Assembly: GCF_023195695.1 (NCBI RefSeq)
Contig: NZ_JALPQG010000005.1
Span: forward strand, 248,001 to 312,000
Source: Aliiroseovarius sp. S1339
GTDB taxonomy: Bacteria > Pseudomonadota > Alphaproteobacteria > Rhodobacterales > Rhodobacteraceae
Direction of reading: 5' to 3'
DNA: 64,000 nt
The translations under genes and the position numbers were made by a program. Every line of letters begins with the position of its first letter. The first letter of the stretch is position 1. Under the pieces are notes generated by a model. That model did not search any database, was not told where the DNA came from, and worked only from the letters and a program-made list of their open reading frames with translations. Positions 6,189 through 63,315 of the stretch are shown in pieces.

Positions 6189-7775
6189 ATGCGCGATTTT
6201 CACCTGCCCGGACGGTCGCCCGTCCTTGCCACCAACGGCATCTGCGCCACGTCTCATCCGCTGGCCGCACAGGTCGCGTTGGACATTCTGAAGGCGGGTG
6301 GCAATGCCGTTGACGCCGCCATAGCCGCCGGGGTGCTGCTGGGCATTTGCGAACCTCAGATGACGGGGATCGGGGGCGACTGTTTCGTCCTGCTAGACGT
6401 GCCGGGGCGGAAGGACATCATCGCGCTGAATGGGTCCGGGCGCGCGCCCCGCCGCCTTTCGGCGAACGCTTTACGCGCGCAGGACCACACACGCATTCCC
6501 GAACGTTCGGTTCATGCGGTAACCATTCCCGGCGCGATTGACGCTTTTTGCATGTTATCAGCAGACTGGGGGCGGTTGTCGCTGGCCGAAACCCTCGCCC
6601 CAGCCATTCACTATGCAGAAGACGGCGTGCCGGTTGCGCCGAGGGTCGCACTGGATTGGAAGATCGCCGCGCGCGACGGGTGCCTGTCTGGCGTGGCGCG
6701 CGATTTTTACTTGGTTAACGGCGCGCCACCCGGCGTAGGCGATGTGTTCCGAGCCCCTGAACAGGCACAGGTCCTTCGCGCCATCGCGGCAAAGGGGCGT
6801 GCTGGCTTTTATGAAGGCGAAGTTGCCGATGATATGGTTGCCAGCTTGAAGGCTATGGGTGGCGTCCATGAGCTGGACGATTTCGCAGAACCGCAAGCGT
6901 TCTATACAAACGCGATTTCCGGCACTTACAAAAAAGTTGACCTGATCGAGCACCCCCCAAACAGCCAAGGCGCAACGGCGATCCTGATGGCAAATATCTT
7001 GTCGCAATTCGATCTGCCATCCCTCGACCCATTTGGTGCCGAACGTGCACATATCGAGGCAGAAGCGGCCAAACTCGCCTATGACGCGCGCAACCGGATC
7101 ATCGCCGACCCAGATGACACCACCCGGCTGAAGCACATGCTGTCAGCCAACACAGCGGCTGATCTGGCGGCACTTATCGACCTGCGCAGAGCGATGGTGA
7201 CAGCGACTGACACCAGCGAGGCCACGCACCGGGACACCGTTTACCTGACCGTTGTCGACAAAGACAGAATGTCGGTGTCGCTGATCTATTCAATATACCA
7301 CGCATTTGGCGCAGGACTGGCGTCAGACAAGTTCGGCATTTTGTTCCAAAACCGCGGCGCCGGTTTCAACCTGACCGCCGGGCACCCGAATGAAGCGGGA
7401 GGCGGCAAACGCCCGATGCACACGATTATTCCCGGAATGCTTCGTGAAGGCGGGCGGGTGACGATGCCGTTTGGCGTGATGGGTGGCGCGTATCAACCGA
7501 ATGGGCATGTGCGCTTCCTCAGCAATATGGTCGATTTCGGCATGGACGCCCAAACCGCAATCGATGCCCCGCGCGCCTTCTCGGACGGTGGGGTTCTGAA
7601 ACTGGAACGCGGCTATGGCGTGGATGTGCGGGCACAACTGGCGGAAATTGGGCACAGGATCAACATACCCGAAACACCAATCGGCGGCGCACAAGCCATT
7701 CATATTGACCATGATCGTGGGGTGTTAATCGGTGCGTCGGACGGACGGAAAGACGGATGCGCAATTGGCTATTAA
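6189..7775 (+). CDS. ggt: Gamma-glutamyltransferase
   Basis: A 528-residue N-terminal-nucleophile hydrolase of the gamma-glutamyltranspeptidase family, which cleaves glutathione and related gamma-glutamyl compounds. The N-terminal region has GGNAVDAAIAAG and MTGIGGDCFVL. The probable autoprocessing threonine is in THRDTVYLTVVDKD, placed as in the family's T-x-Y-V-V-D-K-D pattern. There is no clear signal peptide, so a cytoplasmic location is likely, as in many alphaproteobacterial homologues. I prefer the ATG at 6189, preceded by GCGAGG, over an upstream in-frame ATG at 6135. The gene converges on hspQ with a 6 bp gap. Confidence 0.87.
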   Translation: MRDFHLPGRSPVLATNGICATSHPLAAQVALDILKAGGNAVDAAIAAGVLLGICEPQMTGIGGDCFVLLDVPGRKDIIALNGSGRAPRRLSANALRAQDHTRIPERSVHAVTIPGAIDAFCMLSADWGRLSLAETLAPAIHYAEDGVPVAPRVALDWKIAARDGCLSGVARDFYLVNGAPPGVGDVFRAPEQAQVLRAIAAKGRAGFYEGEVADDMVASLKAMGGVHELDDFAEPQAFYTNAISGTYKKVDLIEHPPNSQGATAILMANILSQFDLPSLDPFGAERAHIEAEAAKLAYDARNRIIADPDDTTRLKHMLSANTAADLAALIDLRRAMVTATDTSEATHRDTVYLTVVDKDRMSVSLIYSIYHAFGAGLASDKFGILFQNRGAGFNLTAGHPNEAGGGKRPMHTIIPGMLREGGRVTMPFGVMGGAYQPNGHVRFLSNMVDFGMDAQTAIDAPRAFSDGGVLKLERGYGVDVRAQLAEIGHRINIPETPIGGAQAIHIDHDRGVLIGASDGRKDGCAIGY

Positions 7776-7781
7776 GCGCGA

Positions 7782-8108
7782 TCAGTTCATTTGGACATGC
7801 ATCGGATACTGACCATCCTCAAGATCTCCGAAGAATTCGGGGACATCCGGGTGGCCGACAGGCTCGCCTGAATAGTCAGCAATCAGGTTCTGCTCGGATA
7901 CATAAGCAACATAATAGCTTTGGTCGTTTTCGGCGAGCAGGTGATAGAAAGGCTGATCTTTCTGAGGCCGACTTTCTTCGGGAATGGCGTCATACCATTC
8001 CTCGGTGTTCGAAAACATGGCGTCCACGTCAAACACCACACCCCGGAAGGGATGCTTCCGGTGACGGACAATCTGTCCGAGCGAGTATTTGGCGCGCGTC
8101 TTTAACAT
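7782..8108 (-). CDS. hspQ: Heat shock protein HspQ
   Basis: A 108-residue YccV-like protein. The start MLKTRAKYSLGQIVRHRKHPFRG and the central VVFDVDAMFSNTEEWY and QPFYHLLAE motifs are characteristic of HspQ, a small hemimethylated-DNA-binding and protease-specificity factor. In E. coli it modulates DnaA levels and Lon activity; a similar role here is assumed from homology. Its length is typical. It is a single gene converging on ggt, with its promoter presumably in the 219 bp region shared with the divergent lytic transglycosylase. Confidence 0.92.
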   Translation of the reverse strand: MLKTRAKYSLGQIVRHRKHPFRGVVFDVDAMFSNTEEWYDAIPEESRPQKDQPFYHLLAENDQSYYVAYVSEQNLIADYSGEPVGHPDVPEFFGDLEDGQYPMHVQMN

Positions 8109-50456: not shown

Positions 50457-50600
50457 TGGACCTGTCCCGCTTTTGTGCCGCCCCGAGTGCTCGTTTAAGC
50501 CACTTTCCGTTCGAACACGACCGGGCTTTTCCAGCCGAGTGCTGAGTGCCGCCGACACGGATTGTAGAAGCCGTTGATATATTCGAAGATCGCCATCTCA
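50457..50600 (-). mobile_element. IS3-family transposase remnant (C-terminal end and IS terminus)
   Basis: On the minus strand a frame reads AEMAIFEYINGFYNPCRRH and then SALGWKSPVVFERKVA followed by a stop, the C-terminus of an IS3-family OrfB transposase. The probable terminus TGGACCTGTCCCGC is at 50457-50470. Upstream parts of the element are missing and are replaced by an IS91-family transposase gene at about 50600. Confidence 0.75.
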
Positions 50601-51721
50601 GCCTGCCGCATCTCAAGGTGATGTCTGCCATCGAGAATTGCCGGACCGCAGCGCTCGGCGGGCATGTCTCAGCCTGCAACAAGTGCGATCATCAGCACAT
50701 CGCCTATAATTCGTGTCGCAATCGGCATTGTCCGAAGTGCCAGGGCCTCGCGTCACGGGACTGGATGCAGGCTCGTGTCGAGGACCTGCTGCCGGTTGAA
50801 TACTTCCACGCGGTCTTCACCCTGCCAACCCAGATTGCTGACATTGCTTTCCAGAACAAGGCGGCGGTCTATGGTCTGCTGTTCAAGGCATCCGCCCAGA
50901 CCCTTCTGACCATTGCCGCCGATCCGAAGCATCTCGGCGCCCGGATCGGCATGACCAGCGTGCTGCACACATGGGGCTCGGCGATGACCCATTATCCGCA
51001 CGCCCATGTCATCGTGCCAGGTGGCGGGCTGTCGCCGGATGGTGCCCGATGGATCGCCTGCCGCCCGGGGTTCTTCCTGCCCGTGAAGGTCCTGTCGCGG
51101 CTGTTCCGGCGTCTGTATCTCGAAGGGCTGGCCAGATTGTACAAAGCTGGGAAGCTGGCGTTCTTCGGCGATCTGTCGGAACTGACCGACCCCGACATGT
51201 TCGCCGCCCATCTCGCGCCGCTGCGCAAGGCCGACTGGGTCGTTTATGCCAAACCTCCCTTCGGTGGACCGGAGGCGGTGCTTGCCTATCTCAGCCGATA
51301 CACCCACCGTGTCGCGATCTCGAACCACCGCCTCATCAGCGCGGATGCCGACACCGTGGCGTTCCACTGGAAAGACTACCGCATCAAGCGCGGGGATCGG
51401 ATGAAGGTCATGCGCCTGCCCATATCCGAGTTCATCCGCCGCTTCCTGGTTCATGTCCTGCCAACAGGCTTCCACCGCATCCGCCACACCGGCTTCTTGG
51501 TCAATGGTATCCGCCGCGACAGGATCGAGAAGATCAGGCGTCTGATCGGTACGGTGCCACGGCCCGATCAGACGACCGGTGAGGACAGGCGCTCCGATTC
51601 CGACGAGCGGGACCCGCGCCAGACATGCCCCAAATGCGGAGGGGAGATGCGCGTCATCGAAACCTTCACCCGCGGCAAAACGCCGAAATCCCGCGCGCCG
51701 CCTTGGGAGGACGCCGCATGA
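50546..51721 (+). CDS. IS91-family transposase, chimeric N-terminus
   Basis: A 391-residue frame. From about residue 17 it matches IS91-type transposases: zinc-finger cysteines C44, C47, C57, C62 and C65 (YNSCRNRHCPKCQ), the histidine pair in HYPHAHVIVPGGGLSPDG (H152, H154) and the tyrosine motif AYLSRYTHRVAISNHRL. These rolling-circle-type transposases use a Y-x-x-x-Y tyrosine. The first 16 residues are encoded by antisense IS3 debris, so the native start was lost and translation, if any, begins in foreign sequence. A second zinc-ribbon (TCPKCGGEMRVIETF) closes the protein. It may be inactive. Confidence 0.85.
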   Translation: MPPTRIVEAVDIFEDRHLSLPHLKVMSAIENCRTAALGGHVSACNKCDHQHIAYNSCRNRHCPKCQGLASRDWMQARVEDLLPVEYFHAVFTLPTQIADIAFQNKAAVYGLLFKASAQTLLTIAADPKHLGARIGMTSVLHTWGSAMTHYPHAHVIVPGGGLSPDGARWIACRPGFFLPVKVLSRLFRRLYLEGLARLYKAGKLAFFGDLSELTDPDMFAAHLAPLRKADWVVYAKPPFGGPEAVLAYLSRYTHRVAISNHRLISADADTVAFHWKDYRIKRGDRMKVMRLPISEFIRRFLVHVLPTGFHRIRHTGFLVNGIRRDRIEKIRRLIGTVPRPDQTTGEDRRSDSDERDPRQTCPKCGGEMRVIETFTRGKTPKSRAPPWEDAA

Positions 51722-52835: not shown

Positions 52836-53662
52836 GTTGACCCTTATACCGTTTAATTTGATTTCAGTTAATCCGCCCGTCAAGATTGGGGTGACCCAAA
52901 AACGGTTTCGGCGTTTCGCTAAAAACGGCATCAATAAAAACGGATCTTGGGTTGGCGAAAACCATTTGAAAACTGACCTTCATGCTACGCGCTGAATCGG
53001 TCTCTTCGGACTGGAAGGAGACCTCGGAGGCGACGCAGCATCAGCCATTTCTGAAGGCAGGTATTCGTTGCTCACGGCCCTTTCCGGACCTGCACCCTAC
53101 CTTGAAGATGCTGCGGCCGCAGCCCGCATAGCCGCCATTCGCCGTGGCCGCAAACTCTGGAATTGCTCGAACTCACCGTTCGCGGACTTCGCTGACCTTG
53201 GGAAATTCGCCTTTGCTAGCGCAGCATCCTTTCGCACTTGCCGAAAGGGTTTCGCCGCCTTGCAGCTGGCGGAGCCAAACCGGACATTCAACCCGGCTCC
53301 TTGACGTCAAATTCAAACCTAACTTTCGCTACACCGAGCCAAGACAATCGAGACTCGGGCAAGTTCGCCGTCTGTGGGCGATGGAACGATGTCTGCAACC
53401 TATGGCAAGGGGCCGTTTTCGTCAGCCGGGAGTAAGTCGTTTTCAGCGTCTACGAAACATCGCCAATGCCTTCATTCTGCTGTTTGGCCTGATTTCCAAA
53501 GCGGGTTTTGTGCCGGAGAAAACCAGCAAGCTTCGATGCGTGTGGTGTTAAATTTGATGGCATTGTAGTCTTGCGTGTCAAAACGCTCAGATGAACGGCG
53601 CACGAAACGCTGCGGGGCATCAAAGCCATTGCGCTTGAGAAATTGATATAAGGAATGCCACG
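52836..53662. other. 827-base gene-poor region before the membrane AraC gene
   Basis: No open frame here has recognisable protein features. The open frames are GC-skew artefacts. The sequence looks like degraded DNA; the promoter of the AraC-type gene should be near its right end. Confidence 0.45.
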
Positions 53663-54694
53663 GTGAGCACGGTTCCCACGTCTTGGCTCATTTCGATTCT
53701 TGCGGTTTTTATCGCAGCGGCGGTTGTGAGCAGACCGCTGCTGCCGGTTGCTGCGCGCGTTCTGTTTGGCCTTGCACTTGGCCTTGTTGCAGTGGTCACC
53801 GTTTTTGTGGGATTGAGATCGGAATATGGGATTGAGGCGCTGAGCCGGATACAGCCCCATATTGCGATACTGATAGCCCCCACGCTATGGCTTGGTTTTC
53901 AATCACTTGCGTCAACGACCGGGGCCCCAAGCCGACAGAGGCTTCTGATCGTCGCTATTGGTCTTGTGGTCGGGCAACTTGCGCTGTTTCTACCAACGGC
54001 CTGGTCCGCTGATTTGGTCGTGATCGGCACCAATGCCATCTGTGCCATTTTGCTGGCGAGGATGCTGCTTCAGCCATCAGAAGCATTTGTTCAGGTCGCA
54101 CCCGGCAAATTTCGCATGACCAGACTTGCGCTGCTTTTTGCGCTGTTCTTCATCGGCCTGATCGTTGCGGCTGATCTGATCTTTGTTGCGGTGCTGTCTG
54201 CGGGCAATACAGGGATCATCCAGCTCCTGACTGGCGTATCTGGCGTGATTGTTACCGTCGTCTTGATGAGCGCGCTTGTTGGCGTGCCACTTGCCCTTGG
54301 GGGCCAGACGCGGCACGCGACGCGCGACCTTGCGACAGAAGCACCGCTGGAAGAGGACCACGACCTGTTGCGCAGGCTCGATCAACTGATGGCAGACCAA
54401 CAAATATTCACGGACCCGGATCTGACGCTCGCGCGGTTGGGTCGGCGGCTCCACTGCCCCGCACGAAGCGTTTCAAAAGCGGTCAATCGCGTTAACGGAG
54501 AGAATATTTCGCGCTATATCAATGGCTTTCGCGTGCGCCATGCAGCGACACTGCTGACAACCACTGATCTGCCCGTGACAGACATCATGTTGGAAGCCGG
54601 TTTCCAGAGTAAGTCCAGCTTCAACACCGAGTTTCGTCGCCTGACCGGCCAAACGCCGTCTGACTATAAAAGCCACGGAAGCGGCGACAAATAG
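53663..54694 (+). CDS. Membrane-embedded AraC-family transcriptional regulator
   Basis: A 343-residue protein whose first ~225 residues contain about seven hydrophobic helices (for example ILAVFIAAAVVSRPLLPVAA; LALLFALFFIGLIVAADLIF; GVSGVIVTVVLMSALVGVPL). The C-terminal ~110 residues are an AraC HTH domain: LTLARLGRRLHCPARSVSKA and VTDIMLEAGFQSKSSFNTEF, ending LTGQTPSDYK. It probably binds DNA from the inner membrane in response to an envelope signal. The start is the GTG at 53663 with AAGGA upstream. It precedes an exported small protein, S41 and class-C hydrolases and a CPBP protein on the same strand, which are likely its targets. Confidence 0.88.
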   Translation: MSTVPTSWLISILAVFIAAAVVSRPLLPVAARVLFGLALGLVAVVTVFVGLRSEYGIEALSRIQPHIAILIAPTLWLGFQSLASTTGAPSRQRLLIVAIGLVVGQLALFLPTAWSADLVVIGTNAICAILLARMLLQPSEAFVQVAPGKFRMTRLALLFALFFIGLIVAADLIFVAVLSAGNTGIIQLLTGVSGVIVTVVLMSALVGVPLALGGQTRHATRDLATEAPLEEDHDLLRRLDQLMADQQIFTDPDLTLARLGRRLHCPARSVSKAVNRVNGENISRYINGFRVRHAATLLTTTDLPVTDIMLEAGFQSKSSFNTEFRRLTGQTPSDYKSHGSGDK

Positions 54695-54813
54695 GTTCGC
54701 AATCGCGATTTCAAACGTTCGGAAACGTAAATCCGGGCGCGAATTAAGCGCTTTTCACCTTTGTTGATTGCAGAGCCCACATGCGTGGGACAGCAACAAT
54801 GAAAGGAAATGCT

Positions 54814-55353
54814 GTGAAACTCCGAACACTAAAAGATCATCTGCCGACCATGGGATTGGCGGCCGGTGTGATATTGATCAACTTTGCATCAATCGACTTT
54901 GCAATGGCTGAAACGATCACAACGACAGAAAGTGACATCGCGGTCATCAATATCCCGCAGCCAAAGGAAGGGAATCTTTTGATGCTGCGCGGGCTTGCCG
55001 GCAAAGGCACGGCCTCGTTTCGCATCAACAGCGCTTGTCGCACGATGCCTGTCCGGTTTGTGGCAGGCGACTTTTCTGGCGAAGATGTTGATGTGGCGCG
55101 AACGGGATCGATCCGAATTGTTATCACCAACCCAGAGGTCATGCGCGACCTGTTGGCAGGGCGGGATCTGGTCAGCGACATGGTACGCGTTTCATCCGAT
55201 CCCACCGATCGGGCGGCGGACTTGTATCTGGCGCAGGGCCTTTCGGCGGACACCGGATTTGTCATCAACCCAGGGCGAAACCTGTTTGCAGATGTCCTTG
55301 GCGCTCGCAACACAGACGTGGACTGCGCCAGCCTGTCAACGACGCTTCCATAG
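54814..55353 (+). CDS. Exported protein of unknown function (about 179 aa)
   Basis: I do not recognise a family. The N-terminus is a long signal peptide (MGLAAGVILINFASIDFAMA, cleavage probably AMA-ET). The mature part is beta-rich with a run SDIAVINIPQPKEGNLLMLR, two cysteines spaced far apart (SACRTM near 80 and VDCASL near 170) that could form a disulfide, and DLYLAQGLSADTGF. I chose the GTG at 54814 because AAAGGA sits just before it; ATGs at 54781 and 54799 are alternatives. The gene lies 119 bp after the membrane AraC regulator and may be its first target. Confidence 0.7.
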   Translation: MKLRTLKDHLPTMGLAAGVILINFASIDFAMAETITTTESDIAVINIPQPKEGNLLMLRGLAGKGTASFRINSACRTMPVRFVAGDFSGEDVDVARTGSIRIVITNPEVMRDLLAGRDLVSDMVRVSSDPTDRAADLYLAQGLSADTGFVINPGRNLFADVLGARNTDVDCASLSTTLP

Positions 55354-55436
55354 GCTGAGACATGCGTGCGCAGCTGATGCCTCTTGGGTTTCATGCTGCG
55401 CATACTTCCACGCCAAACATAAAAAGGGCTGCTCCC

Positions 55437-55835
55437 ATGCAAACCGAAACGACTAACCCGAAACGACCCACGATGTACCAGTTGATCCCCCTGCTGCGAC
55501 TGGAAGGCTTCGCGATTGGGCTTGCGGCCATCGTTGCCTATGCCAGTTTGGAACAAAGTTGGACGCTGTTCGCGATCTTGTTCCTTGCGCCCGACCTGGC
55601 GATGCTCGGTTACGCGTTCGGCGCGCGCGTCGGTGCGATTGCCTATAATGCGATGCACAGTTACATCGCCCCCGCTGCGGTCGGGACGATCGGCTGGGTC
55701 GCTGGCTGGTCAGAGGCTATCGCGCTGGTAACCATCTGGGTCGCCCATATCGGCCTTGATCGCGCGATCGGTTATGGCCTCAAACACAGATCGGGCTTCA
55801 AGACCACACACCTATCGCTGCAGGTGCAGCAATGA
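55437..55835 (+). CDS. DUF4260 family membrane protein
   Basis: A 132-residue protein with four hydrophobic helices (GFAIGLAAIVAYASL; WTLFAILFLAPDLAMLGYAFG; YIAPAAVGTIGWVAG; IALVTIWVAHIGLDRAIGYG). LRLEG near the start and AHIGLDRAIGYGLK near the end match DUF4260, a small membrane family of unknown function. The ATG at 55437 follows AAAAAGGG. Its stop overlaps the S41 peptidase start by 4 bp, indicating coupling with the hydrolase operon. Confidence 0.82.
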   Translation: MQTETTNPKRPTMYQLIPLLRLEGFAIGLAAIVAYASLEQSWTLFAILFLAPDLAMLGYAFGARVGAIAYNAMHSYIAPAAVGTIGWVAGWSEAIALVTIWVAHIGLDRAIGYGLKHRSGFKTTHLSLQVQQ

Positions 55836-56959
55836 ACAATGTCACCAAACCGCTTGGCTTTTTGTCCCTAAGTGCGCCTTCGCGTGTTCCTGATGTGCCG
55901 CTTGCATCCAACTCGTCCCGTTGGATAGACCGCCGGTCCTTTCTTGGGGCGCTCTCTGCGACAGGCCTGGCCATGATTTCAGGTCCCACTGCGGCAAGCC
56001 CGAACGATTACCGCCAATCCATTTCGATCATTCAAGACATCTTCGAGAGATACTTTTTCGATCCCGCCTGGATGACATCGCAGCAAGCGCATTCGCTGTT
56101 CTCTGAGCTGATGGAACTCGCCGAAACCTCGCAAGACCCCGAACGCCTTTGCCTCGATTTTGAACAAACGTTCAAACGTATAGGCCTGTCCCATGTCACG
56201 CTGTCTGTTCGACAACGCAGTACGGCGGCTTTGGGTCGACACTTCGATTCCATGCAAGTCGGCCCCGAGGCTGTAGCCTTGGAATGGGACCACCAGGTGG
56301 CCTGCCTCAGTGTTCGCACCTTCATGGGCCAGGACACCGGCCCGCGCATCACGGCCGCGTTCGAGGACATTGCGTCCAGGGGCGCGAAGGGGCTGATCAT
56401 TGATCTGCGCGACAATCCCGGCGGGGCATTTGCGATGCGCCGCCTCGTTGGCCACTGTATCGCTGATGGTGTCGATGCCGGCGTTCTACTGGGACGGGGG
56501 TGGTCTCGGGAAGGTGCGCTGATGCCAGAACGCACAGAGATCGAGGCGCTGGAGCCCTGGCACGGTGCAACTGTCGTTGGCCTTTGGAACCACCTTGCGA
56601 TCCATGCCGTCACACGGGTCCATTTCTTTCCCATGCGGCCGATGTTTCATGGCCCGATAGCGATCCTGATCAATGGACAAACGCAAAGCGCCTCCGAACT
56701 CGTTGCAGAGGTTCTGCGAAGCGTGCGAGGTGCCGTGCTGATCGGCGAGACCAGCGCGGGCGCTCTGCTGGTTCAAAAACCCTTTGATGTCGGGGATCAG
56801 TTTACCCTGTCCTTGCCTGTCGCCGATTACATAAGCCACGGCAGCGGTCGGATCGAAGGCGTGGGGCTGGTGCCGGACATAAACGCGTCTGACCAAGACG
56901 CGATTTCCGTAGCCTTTTCCTCCCTTTCCGAGATGCGGAATACTGAGGGGAAGTTATGA
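55832..56959 (+). CDS. S41-family peptidase, Tat-exported
   Basis: A 375-residue protein. A twin-arginine signal is visible near residues 30-60 (DRRSFLGALSATGLAMISG). The peptidase core has GLIIDLRDNPGGAF (about residue 180), the nucleophile region NGQTQSASELVAEVLR, and a lysine in GETSAGALLVQKPFDVG that fits the S41 Ser-Lys dyad. There is no PDZ domain, so it is closer to TSP/CtpA-like minimal forms. It acts in the periplasm after Tat export. It overlaps both the DUF4260 gene and the beta-lactamase-like gene by 4 bp, so three genes are translationally coupled. Confidence 0.88.
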   Translation: MNNVTKPLGFLSLSAPSRVPDVPLASNSSRWIDRRSFLGALSATGLAMISGPTAASPNDYRQSISIIQDIFERYFFDPAWMTSQQAHSLFSELMELAETSQDPERLCLDFEQTFKRIGLSHVTLSVRQRSTAALGRHFDSMQVGPEAVALEWDHQVACLSVRTFMGQDTGPRITAAFEDIASRGAKGLIIDLRDNPGGAFAMRRLVGHCIADGVDAGVLLGRGWSREGALMPERTEIEALEPWHGATVVGLWNHLAIHAVTRVHFFPMRPMFHGPIAILINGQTQSASELVAEVLRSVRGAVLIGETSAGALLVQKPFDVGDQFTLSLPVADYISHGSGRIEGVGLVPDINASDQDAISVAFSSLSEMRNTEGKL

Positions 56960-58137
56960 AATATGTGGCGCATAAGCGATGGGCGAAATGGGTGATTGGC
57001 CTGCTGGCCTCGTTCATGATCGCGGTGTGGATGATGATGGTCCCCCATCCTGCTGCACCCACGGCACCGCTTGATCGCGATCACCTTAAGGCATGGCTCG
57101 ACAGCATCGTCTCATCGCAAGCTGCCACTGCGATATCGATCTCTGTCATTCAGAATGGCGACGTTGCATTGGAAATGGCGTCAGGCACAGCAAATCCTTT
57201 TAGGACTCAACAGGCAACGCCGCAGACCCGATATCACGTCTGGTCTGTGACCAAACTCGCGACGGCTTTGACGATCTTGACGCTGGCCGAGGATCGGGAA
57301 CTGGATCTCGACCTTCCGGTTACAGAAATTCTGCCCTGGCTGGATTTGGACGAAGCCGCGGAAAACCGCATCACGACCCGAGATCTTTTGCGGCATAGGT
57401 CGGGTCTTCTAGACACAGTACCGGCGGTTTTTGGGTGGCTGCAATATGACGAAAACTTGCCAAATCAAACGGAGTTTCTGCGCCAAAAGATGCCCGCCTA
57501 CCGCGATCTTGGTTTCCAACCCGGTGACGACCGCAGCTACAGTAACCTCGGATACATGCTGCTTGGCGCGATTATCGAGGCGGTGAGCGGACAAGTGTAT
57601 GAAGAAGTGGTATTCGAGCGCGTGTTGGAACCCGCAGGGATGGCATCAAGCAGCTTTGTCTTTGGCGCACCGCAATCAGAAGACGAAGCGCTCGGGTCGC
57701 ACCCATTGGTGCATTTCTTCACGCCGTTCCTTCCCTATTTTGTCGATCTCGACGATCTGATCAGGGAACGGGACGGTCGGATTTGGTGGCTGAACCGTGT
57801 CTACATCAAAGCGACCCCGCCGACGGGTCTAATAGCCTCCGCACGCGACGCCGCCCGTTTGGGCTCTGTCACAATGGCAAAAGGCCCTGTTCTTCAAAGT
57901 GACGAAATGGTGCGACTTATGATTGCACCGGATCAAGAGGATTTTTCCCTTGGCTGGTTCGAACGTGATGCGGCGGCGCAATGGTTGCAACATCGCGGGA
58001 GAGGCCCGGGCTTTGCAGCGGTTGTGAGGGTCTATCCGGCACAAGGTCTTTCCATTGCCGTTCTCGCAAGCGGAACTGACGCCCCGGTTGCCGATATTGC
58101 CGATGTCGTCGCGCAGTCTTTGGGTGATGAAGAGTGA
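56956..58137 (+). CDS. Serine hydrolase, class-C beta-lactamase/PBP-like
   Basis: A 393-residue protein of the beta-lactamase-related (class C) family. The N-terminus is a membrane anchor or signal (WVIGLLASFMIAVWMMMVP). The S-x-x-K nucleophile motif is SVTK in YHVWSVTKLATALTIL, the Y-x-N motif is YSNLGYM, and HRGRGPGF corresponds to the H/K-x-G motif. Substrates range from beta-lactams to peptidoglycan peptides and esters. It starts inside the S41 peptidase stop (ATGA), so the two enzymes are made together and probably act on the same periplasmic substrate. Confidence 0.9.
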   Translation: MKYVAHKRWAKWVIGLLASFMIAVWMMMVPHPAAPTAPLDRDHLKAWLDSIVSSQAATAISISVIQNGDVALEMASGTANPFRTQQATPQTRYHVWSVTKLATALTILTLAEDRELDLDLPVTEILPWLDLDEAAENRITTRDLLRHRSGLLDTVPAVFGWLQYDENLPNQTEFLRQKMPAYRDLGFQPGDDRSYSNLGYMLLGAIIEAVSGQVYEEVVFERVLEPAGMASSSFVFGAPQSEDEALGSHPLVHFFTPFLPYFVDLDDLIRERDGRIWWLNRVYIKATPPTGLIASARDAARLGSVTMAKGPVLQSDEMVRLMIAPDQEDFSLGWFERDAAAQWLQHRGRGPGFAAVVRVYPAQGLSIAVLASGTDAPVADIADVVAQSLGDEE

Positions 58138-58269
58138 TGCAAAGGGCTGCTACAAAACCGATGCATCCCGCATCGCAGGATTGTCCCGGTCTGTTAAAGC
58201 CTGCATGCGGTGTCTGAGCATGACAGGTCGTTTCAAAATCTCATTCGGAAGTCTTTTGGAATTGGAGAT

Positions 58270-58992
58270 ATGATCGTGCCGTTTATCTCAGGCAACGCCA
58301 AGAAACTGTTGATTGCGATCCTGATCAGTCTTCCCGGTCTGCTCGCACTTGTGACGCTTGTCACACCTCCGCCTGGCATTCCGGCAATCGCTTTGGCCGT
58401 GAACCCGCTTGTTCTGCTTGTCGTTTTTACTTTGGGGGGATTTTTCGCAGCGCCTAGAATGAATCTGAAGTCAAGGTTGTTCCTTGGTGACGCATGGTCT
58501 CCAGCACAGCTGCTGTTCTATCTGCTGCTCGGCGCAATTGGCGGTCTGATGCTTGGCGTTTTCGATCAGACCACCGCATCGGTGTGGCGTCCTGACGGAA
58601 GTGAATTGAAGACATTGTTTGAAGGGGCAGATCTGTCCAACCTGACCATCGGTATATTCTACGGGGGGATCACCGAGGAATTCATCATGCGCTGGGGTCT
58701 GTTGAGCCTGCTTGCGCTTGGTCTTTCAAAACTGTCACACTACCGCGTCGCGTTGCAGTTGGCGGTCGTTCTGACGGCAGTCTTGTTTGCGGCTGGACAC
58801 TTACCCGCCATTTTTCTGATGTCTCCTGAACCGGGAAGCCTCGCTCTTGTCAGAACTCTTGGTCTTAATCTCATCGCCGGTCTTCTTTTCGGTTACGCCT
58901 ATACGCGCACAAGCCTCGAGGCGGCATTCAGCGCGCATATGGGGCTACATCTCGGAGTTTTCTTGACCGCCGCCACACTGCAACTGGTTTAG
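58270..58992 (+). CDS. CPBP-family intramembrane protease-like protein
   Basis: A 240-residue integral membrane protein of the CPBP/Abi (CAAX-protease and bacteriocin-processing) family. The catalytic pattern is intact: EEFIMRW (EExxxR) at about residue 131, FAAGH (FxxxH) about 40 residues later, and HMGLHLGVF near the C-terminus. These glutamic-type proteases process peptides or give self-immunity to bacteriocins. The start is uncertain: the ATG at 58270 or a GTG at 58276 with better RBS spacing, and an upstream GTG at 58210. It closes the regulated hydrolase set behind the serine hydrolase (132 bp gap). Confidence 0.86.
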   Translation: MIVPFISGNAKKLLIAILISLPGLLALVTLVTPPPGIPAIALAVNPLVLLVVFTLGGFFAAPRMNLKSRLFLGDAWSPAQLLFYLLLGAIGGLMLGVFDQTTASVWRPDGSELKTLFEGADLSNLTIGIFYGGITEEFIMRWGLLSLLALGLSKLSHYRVALQLAVVLTAVLFAAGHLPAIFLMSPEPGSLALVRTLGLNLIAGLLFGYAYTRTSLEAAFSAHMGLHLGVFLTAATLQLV

Positions 58993-59176
58993 TTCGAAAG
59001 ATCGTACTCTTTGTACGATAATCCGCAAAGGAATGAAGACGTGTGACACTGGTCGAAACGCGATGATCACGACCAACAACAATGCATAATTTGTCAAAAC
59101 CTTCGCAGGTTCAGTCATGTCGCGAAGCCTTGGACTGCGCCAATCTACCAGCATCAACAACGCAGGACATGAACCA

Positions 59177-60150: not shown

Positions 60151-61338
60151 ATGACCAGCAAATATCTCATCATCGGCGCCACGGGCGCTATTGGACACGC
60201 CTTTGCAGCTGCATTGCAAGACGCCGGCTTGCACGCCACGCTTCTTGTTCGCGACCGCAAAAAGGCGATTGCACTATTCGACAACACAATCGGCTTCACC
60301 ATTGTTGAGGGTGACGTGAACGATACCGCCTTACTAAACAGTATCGCCGAGGGTGTAGACTTCATTTTCCATGGCGCAAACGCCTCGTATGAACACTGGG
60401 CAAAAGCGATGCCGTTGATGACAACAAACGTCATCAACGCTGCTGAGCAGTCCGGCGCGACCGTGATTTTCCCAGGCAACAACTACAACTTCGGTAAAAC
60501 GGACCAACCGATCAGTGAGATCACGCCGTTCAATCCATCCGCCCCACTAGGTAAGGTTCGGGTCGACCTGGAGAAGATGCTGCAACGCGCGACCGATCAG
60601 GGCCGCATCCGCACGCTCATTGTTCGGATGGCCGAGATTTGGGGGCCAAATGTCACCAACAAACAATTTGCACCCGTTTTCGAAAACGCGCTGAAGGGCA
60701 AAGCCATGCCTTGGCTCATTTCCACCGAGTCCGCGCAGCAATTGCTTTACGCACCTGACGCGGGACGGGCGATGGTCGCCTTGAGCCAAGACCGTGATCG
60801 GAAGCCTTACGAAGTGGTCAATATTGGGGGAAAGCTGTTACCCTCTATCCAATCCTGGTTGGAACAGATTGCAGACGTCGCAGGCGTGCCCGCTAAGATC
60901 AGCGTGATTCCAAAATTCATGCTCTCGCTACTAGGCAACGTGATCCCGGTGATGCGCGAAGTGGCAACGATGTCTTACAAATATGAAACCAGCGTGATCT
61001 TGAACGATGACAAGTTCCGTGCGGCGCACCCAGATTTCAAGCAAACACCGATGAACACCGCAATCGCCGACACGCTTGCTTGGTTCAAAGCCAATGGTTC
61101 AGACGCCCCCGCCAAAAGCCGTGCACGGCGGAAGGGTCGCATCGACAGTGCAGTGCGGTTTGTAGTGGACAATCTCGCCATCGGTATCTTCCCGGCGATC
61201 CTTGCGATTTTGGCAACGCAAGTCCCAGCGTTAGAGGGTTTCCTGCCCTATTTGGCCGTCGCCGCAGGCATTTACTGGACGCCGGGTCTTCACAAACTGA
61301 CAGACAATTTACGGGGTCGTTTTTCTAAGGCGACCTAA
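60151..61338 (+). CDS. NAD-dependent epimerase/dehydratase with C-terminal membrane segment
   Basis: A 395-residue protein. Residues 1-300 form a Rossmann-fold SDR-extended domain: YLIIGATGAIGHAFAAAL binds the cofactor, and ATVIFPGNNYNFGK occupies the active-site region, with Y-x3-K absent in its usual form, so catalysis may differ from typical epimerases. Residues about 335-395 contain a hydrophobic segment (IGIFPAILAILATQVPALEG, then LAVAAGIYWTP) that could anchor it to the membrane. It converges on an AraC-type gene with a 4 bp overlap. Confidence 0.8.
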   Translation: MTSKYLIIGATGAIGHAFAAALQDAGLHATLLVRDRKKAIALFDNTIGFTIVEGDVNDTALLNSIAEGVDFIFHGANASYEHWAKAMPLMTTNVINAAEQSGATVIFPGNNYNFGKTDQPISEITPFNPSAPLGKVRVDLEKMLQRATDQGRIRTLIVRMAEIWGPNVTNKQFAPVFENALKGKAMPWLISTESAQQLLYAPDAGRAMVALSQDRDRKPYEVVNIGGKLLPSIQSWLEQIADVAGVPAKISVIPKFMLSLLGNVIPVMREVATMSYKYETSVILNDDKFRAAHPDFKQTPMNTAIADTLAWFKANGSDAPAKSRARRKGRIDSAVRFVVDNLAIGIFPAILAILATQVPALEGFLPYLAVAAGIYWTPGLHKLTDNLRGRFSKAT

Positions 61339-62339
61339 GTATTGGCCGCTCGAAATTCGCTGGGCGTTTGGCCGGTCCACTTTTTAAACGACCGTGAAAA
61401 GACGGACACCTCGGAATATCCCAGAAGGTAGGCAATCTCGTCATTGCCTACCTCTCCGGCCTTTAAGTATTCCTCTGCCAAATCGCGCCGGGCGTCGGTC
61501 AGAAGATTGGAGTAGCTGGTGCATTCGTCTGATAGTCTTTGCTGCAACTTCCGTACGCTGACTGCCAACTCGGACGCGATCCTCTCGACGCTTGGCGCCT
61601 CACCCTTCAAAGCGTCAAGAATGCGTTGGCGCACCCGAAACGCCCAAGTGTCTCCAAGTTCCAAATCGCCAAGCAATCGCTGTACTTTGTCCTCAAAGAC
61701 CGCAAAGACGCCTTGGCTTGCGCCGATAACAGGCTGATCCAAAGTGGAGTTCTCATAAATCTGGTAACTGTCATCAGCACCGAAAGTGACCGGCGCAGGT
61801 GCGAAGATAGACTCATAAGACGACACATCGCCAGGCCGCTCATACCGAAAGCCAACGCGAAGAGGGCAAACAGGAGCAGGCGCATTGGCGTTCGTCCAGC
61901 TCAGGATTGCGGCCATGAAGGTATCAACGGTATAGCGCAGCGTATCGTGCCAAGGGCTCCATTGCTCGATTGAAATGCGCGTTGTGTCGGGACCGCGCTC
62001 ACACACCATGCCCATCGAATCCCCAAGCACACGCTGATACGTGCAGCACTTTTCAACTGCGACCCGGATCGTCGGCGCGTTCGCCATGACGTACCCAAGC
62101 ATACCGTTGGCTTGCGTTGGAAACCGCTGGCCGCAAACAAGACCAATGTCATCTCTGCCAGTCGCCTCTACGATGGCGTCCCAGACATTCCGCTCAGTTT
62201 GAAGATCAACGTATGGTGGCTCTCCGCGCATCAGTCCCGGCGGTGCACCCGACGCACTTAGAATGCCGTCGATATCCGCACCTTCCTGCGCGGCGATCGC
62301 AATCCTGAACGCCACGATGTTCGAACTGAGCCTTGCCAT
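61335..62339 (-). CDS. AraC-family transcriptional regulator with N-terminal arabinose-binding-like domain
   Basis: A 334-residue regulator of the type with an N-terminal PF12625-like ligand domain (ERNVWDAIVEATGRDDIGLVCG ... PTQANGMLGYVMANAPTIRVAVE) and a C-terminal AraC HTH (VERIASELAVSVRKLQQRLS ... EIAYLLGYSEVSVFSRSFKK ... TGQTPSEFR). Such proteins respond to fatty acid-like or steroid ligands in other bacteria (OruR/VqsM-type). Its 3' end overlaps the epimerase gene by 4 bp, and it is divergent from an SRPBCC gene, which is a likely target. Confidence 0.9.
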   Translation of the reverse strand: MARLSSNIVAFRIAIAAQEGADIDGILSASGAPPGLMRGEPPYVDLQTERNVWDAIVEATGRDDIGLVCGQRFPTQANGMLGYVMANAPTIRVAVEKCCTYQRVLGDSMGMVCERGPDTTRISIEQWSPWHDTLRYTVDTFMAAILSWTNANAPAPVCPLRVGFRYERPGDVSSYESIFAPAPVTFGADDSYQIYENSTLDQPVIGASQGVFAVFEDKVQRLLGDLELGDTWAFRVRQRILDALKGEAPSVERIASELAVSVRKLQQRLSDECTSYSNLLTDARRDLAEEYLKAGEVGNDEIAYLLGYSEVSVFSRSFKKWTGQTPSEFRAANT

Positions 62340-62907: not shown

Positions 62908-63315
62908 GATTGCTGTGTTGGCACATGGCAAGATGCCTCTTGAACGTTGGACTTATTTGGCGCGGTGCCGAAGGCGGACGATAATTTTCTCGCGTAATTG
63001 CAGCTCCGTCTTTGAGATCGGATGAGAATCCAGTTTGTCCTGTGCTTCCGGACCCAGGCGTGACTGCAGACCGCGTAAAGCGTACGTTTGGACAGATTTC
63101 ATCGACGCCGATATCGTCCGCGTTCGCCACCTGATCTTTGCTGCGACCTGCACGAATAGCCGCATCTCCCGCTACACTGCGGCGTGATGGTTTTCGCTCT
63201 TGCCGCATTTTTCGCGCTGCGAGCGCATGCAGCGTAAAATCAAAAGGTCCGCCTTGGGCTCGATCCGGACTTTCGCCGCATGGGCGCCGAACGGCTGCTT
63301 CGGCCTCTTGCTTGG
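62908..63315. other. Gene-poor region with a distant dispersed-element copy
   Basis: A 408-base spacer with no supported gene. Bases 63265-63279 (CCGGACTTTCGCCGC) resemble the CGGACATTCGCTGCG element. Confidence 0.4.

Follow-up and report, generated by a model that had tools for sequence, protein, structure and literature searches.

Membrane-bound regulators and their partners

In Vibrio cholerae, the membrane transcription regulators ToxR and TcpP each have a periplasm-facing partner, ToxS and TcpH respectively, encoded next to the regulator gene. Regulators of this type have one membrane helix and an OmpR-type winged helix DNA-binding domain. Both pairs are named in PMC7496328 and PMC11323476. 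Membrane-bound regulators are also found in the AraC family: according to PMC2386152, 16 of the 31 AraC regulators of Saccharophagus degradans are of this kind, with an AraC domain fused to membrane helices and genes lying beside those of degradative enzymes. But how do such systems compare with a locus in which a membrane AraC regulator is followed by an exported protein? The subject here is a six-gene block of Aliiroseovarius sp. S1339, at positions 53663 to 58992 of a 64,000-nucleotide stretch of contig NZ_JALPQG010000005.1 (positions 248,001 to 312,000; referred to here as the window), whose first two genes encode a membrane AraC-type regulator and an exported orphan protein. The locus is of a known kind, that of the membrane one-component AraC regulator, with an unnamed exported family as its new part; no description of the regulator–orphan pair was found in the open-access papers searched. 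Apart from PMC2386152 and the Vibrio papers, what turned up on membrane AraC regulators there was mostly unrelated, and DUF4260 is mentioned in two papers, once each. The S. degradans regulators, in the same paper, are tied to polysaccharide degradation and one row of Table 2 lists two transmembrane regions, whereas here there are seven predicted helices, a dedicated exported partner and a conserved putative operator.

Comparison of relatives shows a heritable unit made of the regulator gene, an operator-like element and the exported-protein gene, which occurs in two opposite arrangements with its spacing held at 118–128 bp. The reading favoured here, with a probability of about 0.7, is that of a local one-component switch in which the regulator binds the two-part putative operator and controls the promoter of the orphan. 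The features are as follows.

53489..53526, + strand: possible autoregulatory half-site ahead of the regulator gene, decayed in the window; its coordinates are estimated from the distances in three relatives (L098, L119 and L125)
53663..54694, + strand: membrane AraC-type regulator, GTG start, 343 amino acids (PF12833, structure model, Foldseek, dN/dS)
54695..54740, + strand: operator-like element GTTCGCAATCGCGATTTCAAACGTTCGGAAACGTAAATCCGGGCGC, found in 19 of 19 pair-bearing loci
54814..55353, + strand: exported orphan, GTG start, 179 amino acids (19-sequence alignment, structure model, dN/dS)
55437..55835, + strand: DUF4260 membrane protein (PF14079, 131.5 bits); the open reading frame (ORF) as listed begins at 55362
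55832..56959, + strand: S41-family protein exported by twin-arginine translocation (Tat) (PF03572, 96.2 bits; TIGR01409 above cut-off)
56956..58137, + strand: PF00144 serine hydrolase of the beta-lactamase/DD-peptidase superfamily (171.8 bits)
58270..58992, + strand: CPBP (Rce1-like) membrane protease (PF02517, 39.8 bits); the ORF as listed begins at 58210

The initial annotation had placed six genes of these families on the + strand with two 4-bp overlaps, and both the coordinates and Pfam agree with it. The ATGA overlaps join DUF4260 to S41 (55832–55835) and S41 to PF00144 (56956–56959) and, in alignment coordinates, both are kept in all six loci bearing these genes; between PF00144 and CPBP there is no overlap, with a gap of at least 72 bp. 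The orphan most likely starts at GTG 54814 and not at ATG 54781, because an AAAGGA ribosome site and an ATG or GTG align there in 10 of 10 tandem sequences. The DUF4260 and CPBP starts were placed by eye, probably near 55437 and 58270, because the upstream parts of the listed ORFs align poorly.

A regulator and an exported protein that stay together

How constant is the pairing? The comparison covers 21 orphan loci: 17 from a scan with the orphan alignment, the window itself, those of genomes G362 (L098) and G347 (L101), and L150; an orphan fragment with a stop in G635 was left out. Neighbours were scored by tblastn of the six window proteins over flanks of 7 kb on each side (the L150 locus covers only 3 kb). 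By their record names, all 17 scan loci come from genera or families that we take to belong to the class Alphaproteobacteria. A membrane AraC gene adjoins the orphan gene in 19 of the 21 loci (15 of the 17 from the scan), 11 times in tandem, regulator then orphan, and eight times convergent, tail to tail. The two exceptions are L133 (Aestuariispira), with no AraC match within 7 kb, and L123, which lies at a contig end. Distances among regulators follow those among orphans closely (r 0.98 over 17 loci, 0.96 within seven convergent loci), a correlation that is high partly because linked genes share their descent.

The four downstream genes behave differently. The full DUF4260–S41–PF00144 set follows the orphan in six of the 21 loci (the window, L117 from Shimia, in which PF00144 carries a stop, L119, L120, L098 and L101) and a single gene or gene remnant is left in three (L118, L123 and L130); none of the four genes was detected in the other 12 (L121, L122, L124–L129, L131–L133 and L150). 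Because of those 12 loci, the regulator with the hydrolases was rejected as the inherited core. The initial annotation had put one regulator over the whole hydrolase set. Common control does draw support from the gene order in six genomes and from the conserved element before the second gene, but the constant partner is the orphan. The initial annotation had also proposed checking whether gene order is conserved in relatives; close relatives of the downstream genes do occur with the pair, but the pair often occurs without them. The annotation saw a real operon; its regulator is more aptly seen as one member of a regulator/exported-protein pair that has a recognisable putative operator.

The operator-like element

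A block common to the tandem loci lies between the regulator and orphan genes. It combines a dyad centred on AACGTT with a 22-bp direct repeat, which score 0.63 and 0.61, respectively, over 17 sites; no other dyad centre exceeds 0.46 and no other repeat offset 0.42. L132 has a perfect 26-base palindrome, counted by hand. AraC-type proteins bind repeated half-sites about two helix turns apart, and the regulator would be expected to bind this element as a putative operator. It is present in 19 of 19 loci with the regulator–orphan pair, regardless of the direction of the regulator gene, and its distance to the orphan start codon is 118–121 bp in the 11 tandem loci (119 bp in L098 and L101) and 120–128 bp in the eight convergent ones (124 bp in L150, by hand count).

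A 38-base consensus was written by eye from the tandem loci alone and then scanned across loci. In all seven convergent loci scanned (L126–L132), its best match in 14.4 kb falls just upstream of the orphan, with scores of 21–25 of 29; among 60 first-order resamples per locus, the numbers equalling that score are 1, 1, 0, 0, 0, 0 and 0. In L133, which has no regulator, the consensus scores like the locus's own resamples (25 of 60) and the operator is missing. Across the host genome (3.54 Mb, 19 contigs), the element in the window is the only site with two or fewer mismatches to the core. A wider regulon was considered and rejected: in the host, the five other places, with three mismatches, all lie inside predicted ORFs by eye. 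Searching the genomes of 16 of the loci with the core pattern at two mismatches gave 19 distinct sites, among them nine known operators and a new pair. This second orphan/AraC pair in the L129 genome (L150), whose orphan lies behind an exact match, had been missed by the protein scan; its genes lie convergently, at 1586–2161 and from 2186 onward, and its orphan and AraC proteins are 49.7% and 67.3% identical to their L128 counterparts.

A second operator-like site is found about 160 bp upstream of the regulator gene in L125 (at 5693), and weaker relatives of it occur in L098 (6656) and L119 (370), about 160–170 bp before the AraC start across the three loci. The copy before the regulator in the window does not score in the consensus scan. 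Autoregulation through this upstream half-site, decayed in the window, is a possibility.

The membrane regulator

The C-terminal DNA-binding domain (residues 260–336) matches PF12833 at 71.1 bits against a cut-off of 33.6, and Foldseek matches its fold to AraC-type DNA-binding domains, which places the protein in the AraC/XylS type; this domain is the only part that Foldseek matched with confidence. Pfam finds helix-turn-helix families only (HTH_18/HTH_AraC), without a kinase or receiver domain and, taken with the hydropathy and the model, this describes a membrane-bound one-component regulator. The N-terminal half forms seven long helices or hairpins in an AlphaFold model (mean predicted local distance difference test, pLDDT, 76; predicted template modelling score, pTM, 0.53). 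The seven helices of the initial annotation reappear in the predicted model, but no more than six segments clear a strict hydropathy threshold. Positive charge is sparse in the loops and absent from two alternate ones, which suggests a topology with the N-terminus outside and the C-terminus inside.

No close relative was found in the 20 congeners examined, the best matches being 33–39% identical. The ratio of non-synonymous to synonymous substitution rates (dN/dS) of the regulator is 0.10–0.15 in 13 of 15 pairs, and 0.06 and 0.24 in the two very close pairs. More distant regulators of the membrane AraC kind that lack an orphan were seen in L062 (5195–6409), L063 (2045–3451) and L064 (6500–7651), divergent or convergent, by eye, to an exported alpha/beta-hydrolase-like gene. 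Regulators of this type may thus have a more general tendency to pair with exported hydrolases.

Is the pair then a ToxR/ToxS system? The partner gene lies beside the regulator in 19 of 21 orphan loci, and the signal sequence of the orphan predicts that it is exported, but the DNA-binding domain is of the AraC and not the OmpR type. The pair may thus work like ToxR/ToxS without being a member of that group.

The exported protein

The orphan has, by eye, an N-terminal signal sequence that looks cleavable and two cysteines that are invariant in 19 of 19 aligned sequences. It evolves under a dN/dS of 0.25–0.38 and matches nothing in Pfam, NCBIfam or PADLOC. At a relaxed Pfam threshold of E 10, the 19 orphan sequences gave Nup188_SH3-like in three (best 5.6e-4) and MbhD and DUF2911 in one each, which were taken as chance. 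The model is a beta fold, confident at residues 41–150 (block means 84–93) and lower afterwards (67–71). Foldseek against the PDB returned nothing below E 0.1, and the orphan sequence profile found nothing credible among PDB chains. With VIA-align, the top two of 1000 chains are 7OFN (SYLF; Z 6.8, 104 residues aligned, 4.1 Å) and 5UC0 (Z 5.0, 96 aligned, 3.7 Å), Z values below 8 that may reflect merely a common arrangement.

What would such a likeness mean? According to a review (PMC10787603), 5UC0 is EipA, the 5UC0 and 7OFN structures are similar to each other, the likeness to SYLF suggests an interaction of EipA with lipids, and loss of eipA sensitises cells to ethylenediaminetetraacetic acid (EDTA), sodium dodecyl sulfate (SDS) and ampicillin. 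EipA (DUF1134) and SYLF have a small β-barrel domain, which the orphan model weakly resembles. In the same source EipA is controlled by CtrA, whereas the orphan here has a dedicated membrane regulator beside it. At the level of sequence, neither SYLF/Ysc84 (PF04366) nor EipA (PF06577) appears among the Pfam hits of the 19 orphan sequences, and hhalign of the orphan against alignments of SYLF and EipA (six and five sequences) gave probabilities of 0.3 and 0.1 per cent, which are not significant; this negative says little, because SYLF against EipA with the same small alignments is not significant either. An envelope role for the locus is plausible because of the exported and membrane locations of its products and the weak EipA/SYLF-like fold match.

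How might the switch work? In the proposed mechanism, a polytopic AraC-type membrane protein, with its N-terminus outside and its DNA-binding domain inside, would bind the two-part operator upstream of the orphan. Its seven-helix domain may sense a change in the envelope or its lipids, and the exported barrel-like protein would act on that change or feed back on the sensor from the periplasm. The DUF4260, S41, PF00144 and CPBP genes, which in one group of loci lie downstream of the orphan, would probably share its promoter and act as accessory envelope enzymes.

The accessory genes and the movement of the block

Found behind the orphan in just six of 21 loci, and in part decaying, the DUF4260, S41 and PF00144 genes resemble cargo added to the orphan's operon. 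In the S41 protein a Tat signal scores above threshold (TIGR01409, 18.8; cut-off 16.7), in agreement with the Tat export first proposed for it, and H121 and S286 are invariant in all six copies. Among PDB sequences the protein best matches retinol-binding protein 3 and carboxyl-terminal proteases. It shares the PF03572 core with IRBP-like and C-terminal processing S41 peptidases but lies below the family cut-off of the latter (S41A; TIGR00225 65 against 218.6 bits), and Ala311 stands at what we take to be the position of their catalytic Lys. All six copies of the PF00144 protein keep the motifs SVTK, YSN and H.G, and the protein's closest PDB sequence matches are a penicillin-binding-protein-related beta-lactamase, an alpha/beta hydrolase, Flp and alkaline D-peptidase. 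The initial annotation called it class C: the PF00144 superfamily holds, but the protein falls far below the class C beta-lactamase cut-off (NCBIfam NF033085, 45.6 against 415 bits), and beta-lactamase resistance was rejected accordingly. The Shimia copy (L117) has an in-frame stop at codon 142. CPBP family proteins carry the motifs EExxxR, FxxxH and H; the protein in the window has EEFIMR, FAAGH and HMGLH, and its PF02517 score exceeds the cut-off of 22.4 bits. Of the six cargo loci, two have an intact CPBP gene, two a truncated one and two a remnant.

Where else is this cargo found? The S41 protein has one other orthologue, in G301, among 295 family genomes including the host. For DUF4260, 390 order genomes including the host hold six other close homologues (67–96% identity), all six behind an orphan gene. 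Five of these genomes have the gene order of the window (with CPBP truncated or a remnant in four) and the sixth has orphan–DUF4260 at a contig end, so that the order with cargo recurs in six genomes counting the window's own. In Ruegeria (L118) the regulator and orphan are kept while DUF4260 is reduced to a 46-residue remnant at 7624–7761, an apparent step of cargo loss. DUF4260 is the sole cargo family detected in L123 (G431). There, after position 1099 (the same stretch as L102 4898–5530, − strand), orphan and DUF4260 are followed by a short same-strand membrane protein, DUF2306-like by eye, and not by S41; this is a different cargo. In Celeribacter (L130), a CPBP remnant of 59 residues (7612–7785, + strand; 44% identity, E 3e-4) lies between the orphan and the convergent regulator, and for this reason CPBP appears to have been attached in a distant branch too, a point partly in favour of the initial annotation.

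The dN/dS is 0.23–0.44 for S41 and 0.21–0.43 for PF00144, the highest values of both being in very close pairs, and 0.22–0.49 in 14 of 15 pairs for DUF4260. The remaining pair, window against Shimia, gives 1.7 for DUF4260 at a dS of 0.01, which is uninformative. At dS 0.01, DUF4260 is near-identical to Shimia (L117) at synonymous sites, but its neighbours are not (orphan 0.20, PF00144 0.34), so the block looks like a mosaic with recombination inside it.

The block, of about 2–6 kb, moves horizontally between genomes and is not a lineage trait, given the regulator's lack of close relatives in the 20 congeners and the few genomes of the family and order with close S41 or DUF4260 homologues. In nine relative loci, DNA similarity to the window starts 15–481 bp before the regulator and stops inside the block or, in Shimia, 324 bp after it; one separate match of 148 bp lies at 63123. 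For the Roseibium and Labrenzia loci, similarity is limited to a stretch that opens about 130 bp ahead of the regulator and ends with the orphan stop codon (53535–55353 in Roseibium L124, covering regulator and orphan). Transposase- or recombinase-like ORFs are seen by eye near the block in the window, Shimia and G362. That of the window lies about 2 kb upstream of the block (50546–51721, + strand), with a zinc-binding N-terminus, and is of the IS91/IS801 type by eye. A second regulator of the AraC type, soluble-looking, is encoded some 2.3 kb beyond the downstream end of the block (61335–62339, − strand) and adjoins, by eye, an NAD-dependent epimerase-like gene. Three other ideas were discarded: plasmid carriage, as tblastn with S41 gave three weak records only; phage carriage, as no orphan relative was confirmed in a viral contig scan; and a defence system, as PADLOC models matched none of the six window proteins at E 0.01.

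Alternative explanations

Several results weigh against the switch proposed above. The nine remaining sites of the 16-genome search have neither orphan nor regulator in their 3-kb loci, and at two mismatches the search recovered only nine of the 15 operators known in those genomes, six being too divergent (L119, L121, L124, L125, L126 and L127). The 20-base core at one mismatch or fewer found 12 sites in 394 family genomes, one of them an orphan operator, and is not specific alone. No sigma-70-like promoter was found between element and orphan, and the conserved block could in part be an RNA element or core promoter. Nor can the convergent loci be counted as independent: close kinship within L126/L127 and within L129/L131/L132 leaves about four to five lineages. 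The weak orphan fold match that points to lipids has no support from profile comparison. Could the whole 46-bp block then be an RNA leader element or core promoter, instead of this regulator's operator? The block is on the orphan's transcript side, its distance hardly varies and its inverted repeat could fold; yet the AACGTT dyad is symmetric at its centre without a separate loop and is overlaid by the 22-bp direct repeat, Rfam is empty over 53400–59100 at E 1 and, in one case (L133), a locus without the regulator also has no element. Taken together, this explanation seems quite unlikely.

Is the orphan an effector, or a periplasmic co-sensor which stabilises or gates the seven-helix regulator in the manner of ToxS with ToxR and TcpH with TcpP? 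Control of the orphan by the regulator would then be a feedback loop. The tight pairing in both arrangements and the correlated distances speak for this, as does the convergent set: in seven of its eight loci (L130 with its CPBP remnant being the eighth) nothing lies between the ends of orphan and regulator, which makes the orphan the one common target. Against it, a target gene adjoining its regulator requires no physical contact. The ToxS and TcpH partners are anchored in the membrane, whereas the orphan is exported with a cleavable-looking signal. TcpH is a single-pass protein according to PMC11323476. A co-sensor is a real possibility, though less likely than not. A self-protection operon whose exported enzymes degrade a peptide antibiotic or bacteriocin, in line with the purpose suggested by the initial annotation, would account for the presence in a single operon of three hydrolase families that are exported or membrane-bound, for the catalytic-type residues kept in the S41 and PF00144 proteins and for the CPBP remnant even in the distant convergent L130, which suggests that this cargo is attached more widely; it fits poorly with the 12 loci in which no cargo was detected, the Shimia stop, a CPBP truncated or reduced to a remnant in four of six cargo loci, the missed class C cut-off and the lack of a PADLOC match, and is considered unlikely. 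Carriage on mobile DNA might by itself produce the co-occurrence without functional dependence, given that DNA similarity to the nine loci reaches no further than about 500 bp around the block (bar the 148-bp match) and that transposase-like ORFs lie nearby. But operator geometry is unchanged between two opposite arrangements, and the regulator and the orphan are both under purifying selection, which makes this explanation very improbable.

Implications

The switch reading can be extended, more doubtfully, to a closed loop: a seven-helix receptor fused to an AraC domain would read the occupancy of a dedicated periplasmic lipid-binding barrel and regulate the barrel's gene through the two-part operator, a receptor–ligand-carrier circuit onto which envelope hydrolase cassettes would be plugged. 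Membrane-embedded transcription factors are poorly understood, with their signals and binding sites mostly unidentified. Here, comparison alone identifies a regulator, places its probable binding site with a precision of a few bases and points to a constant exported target, and for that reason the signal could be searched for with one reporter. The locus also draws attention to a family of exported proteins as yet without a name and illustrates how enzyme cassettes become attached to a ready-made switch. If the closed loop were true, it would be a new kind of envelope signalling pair in Alphaproteobacteria.

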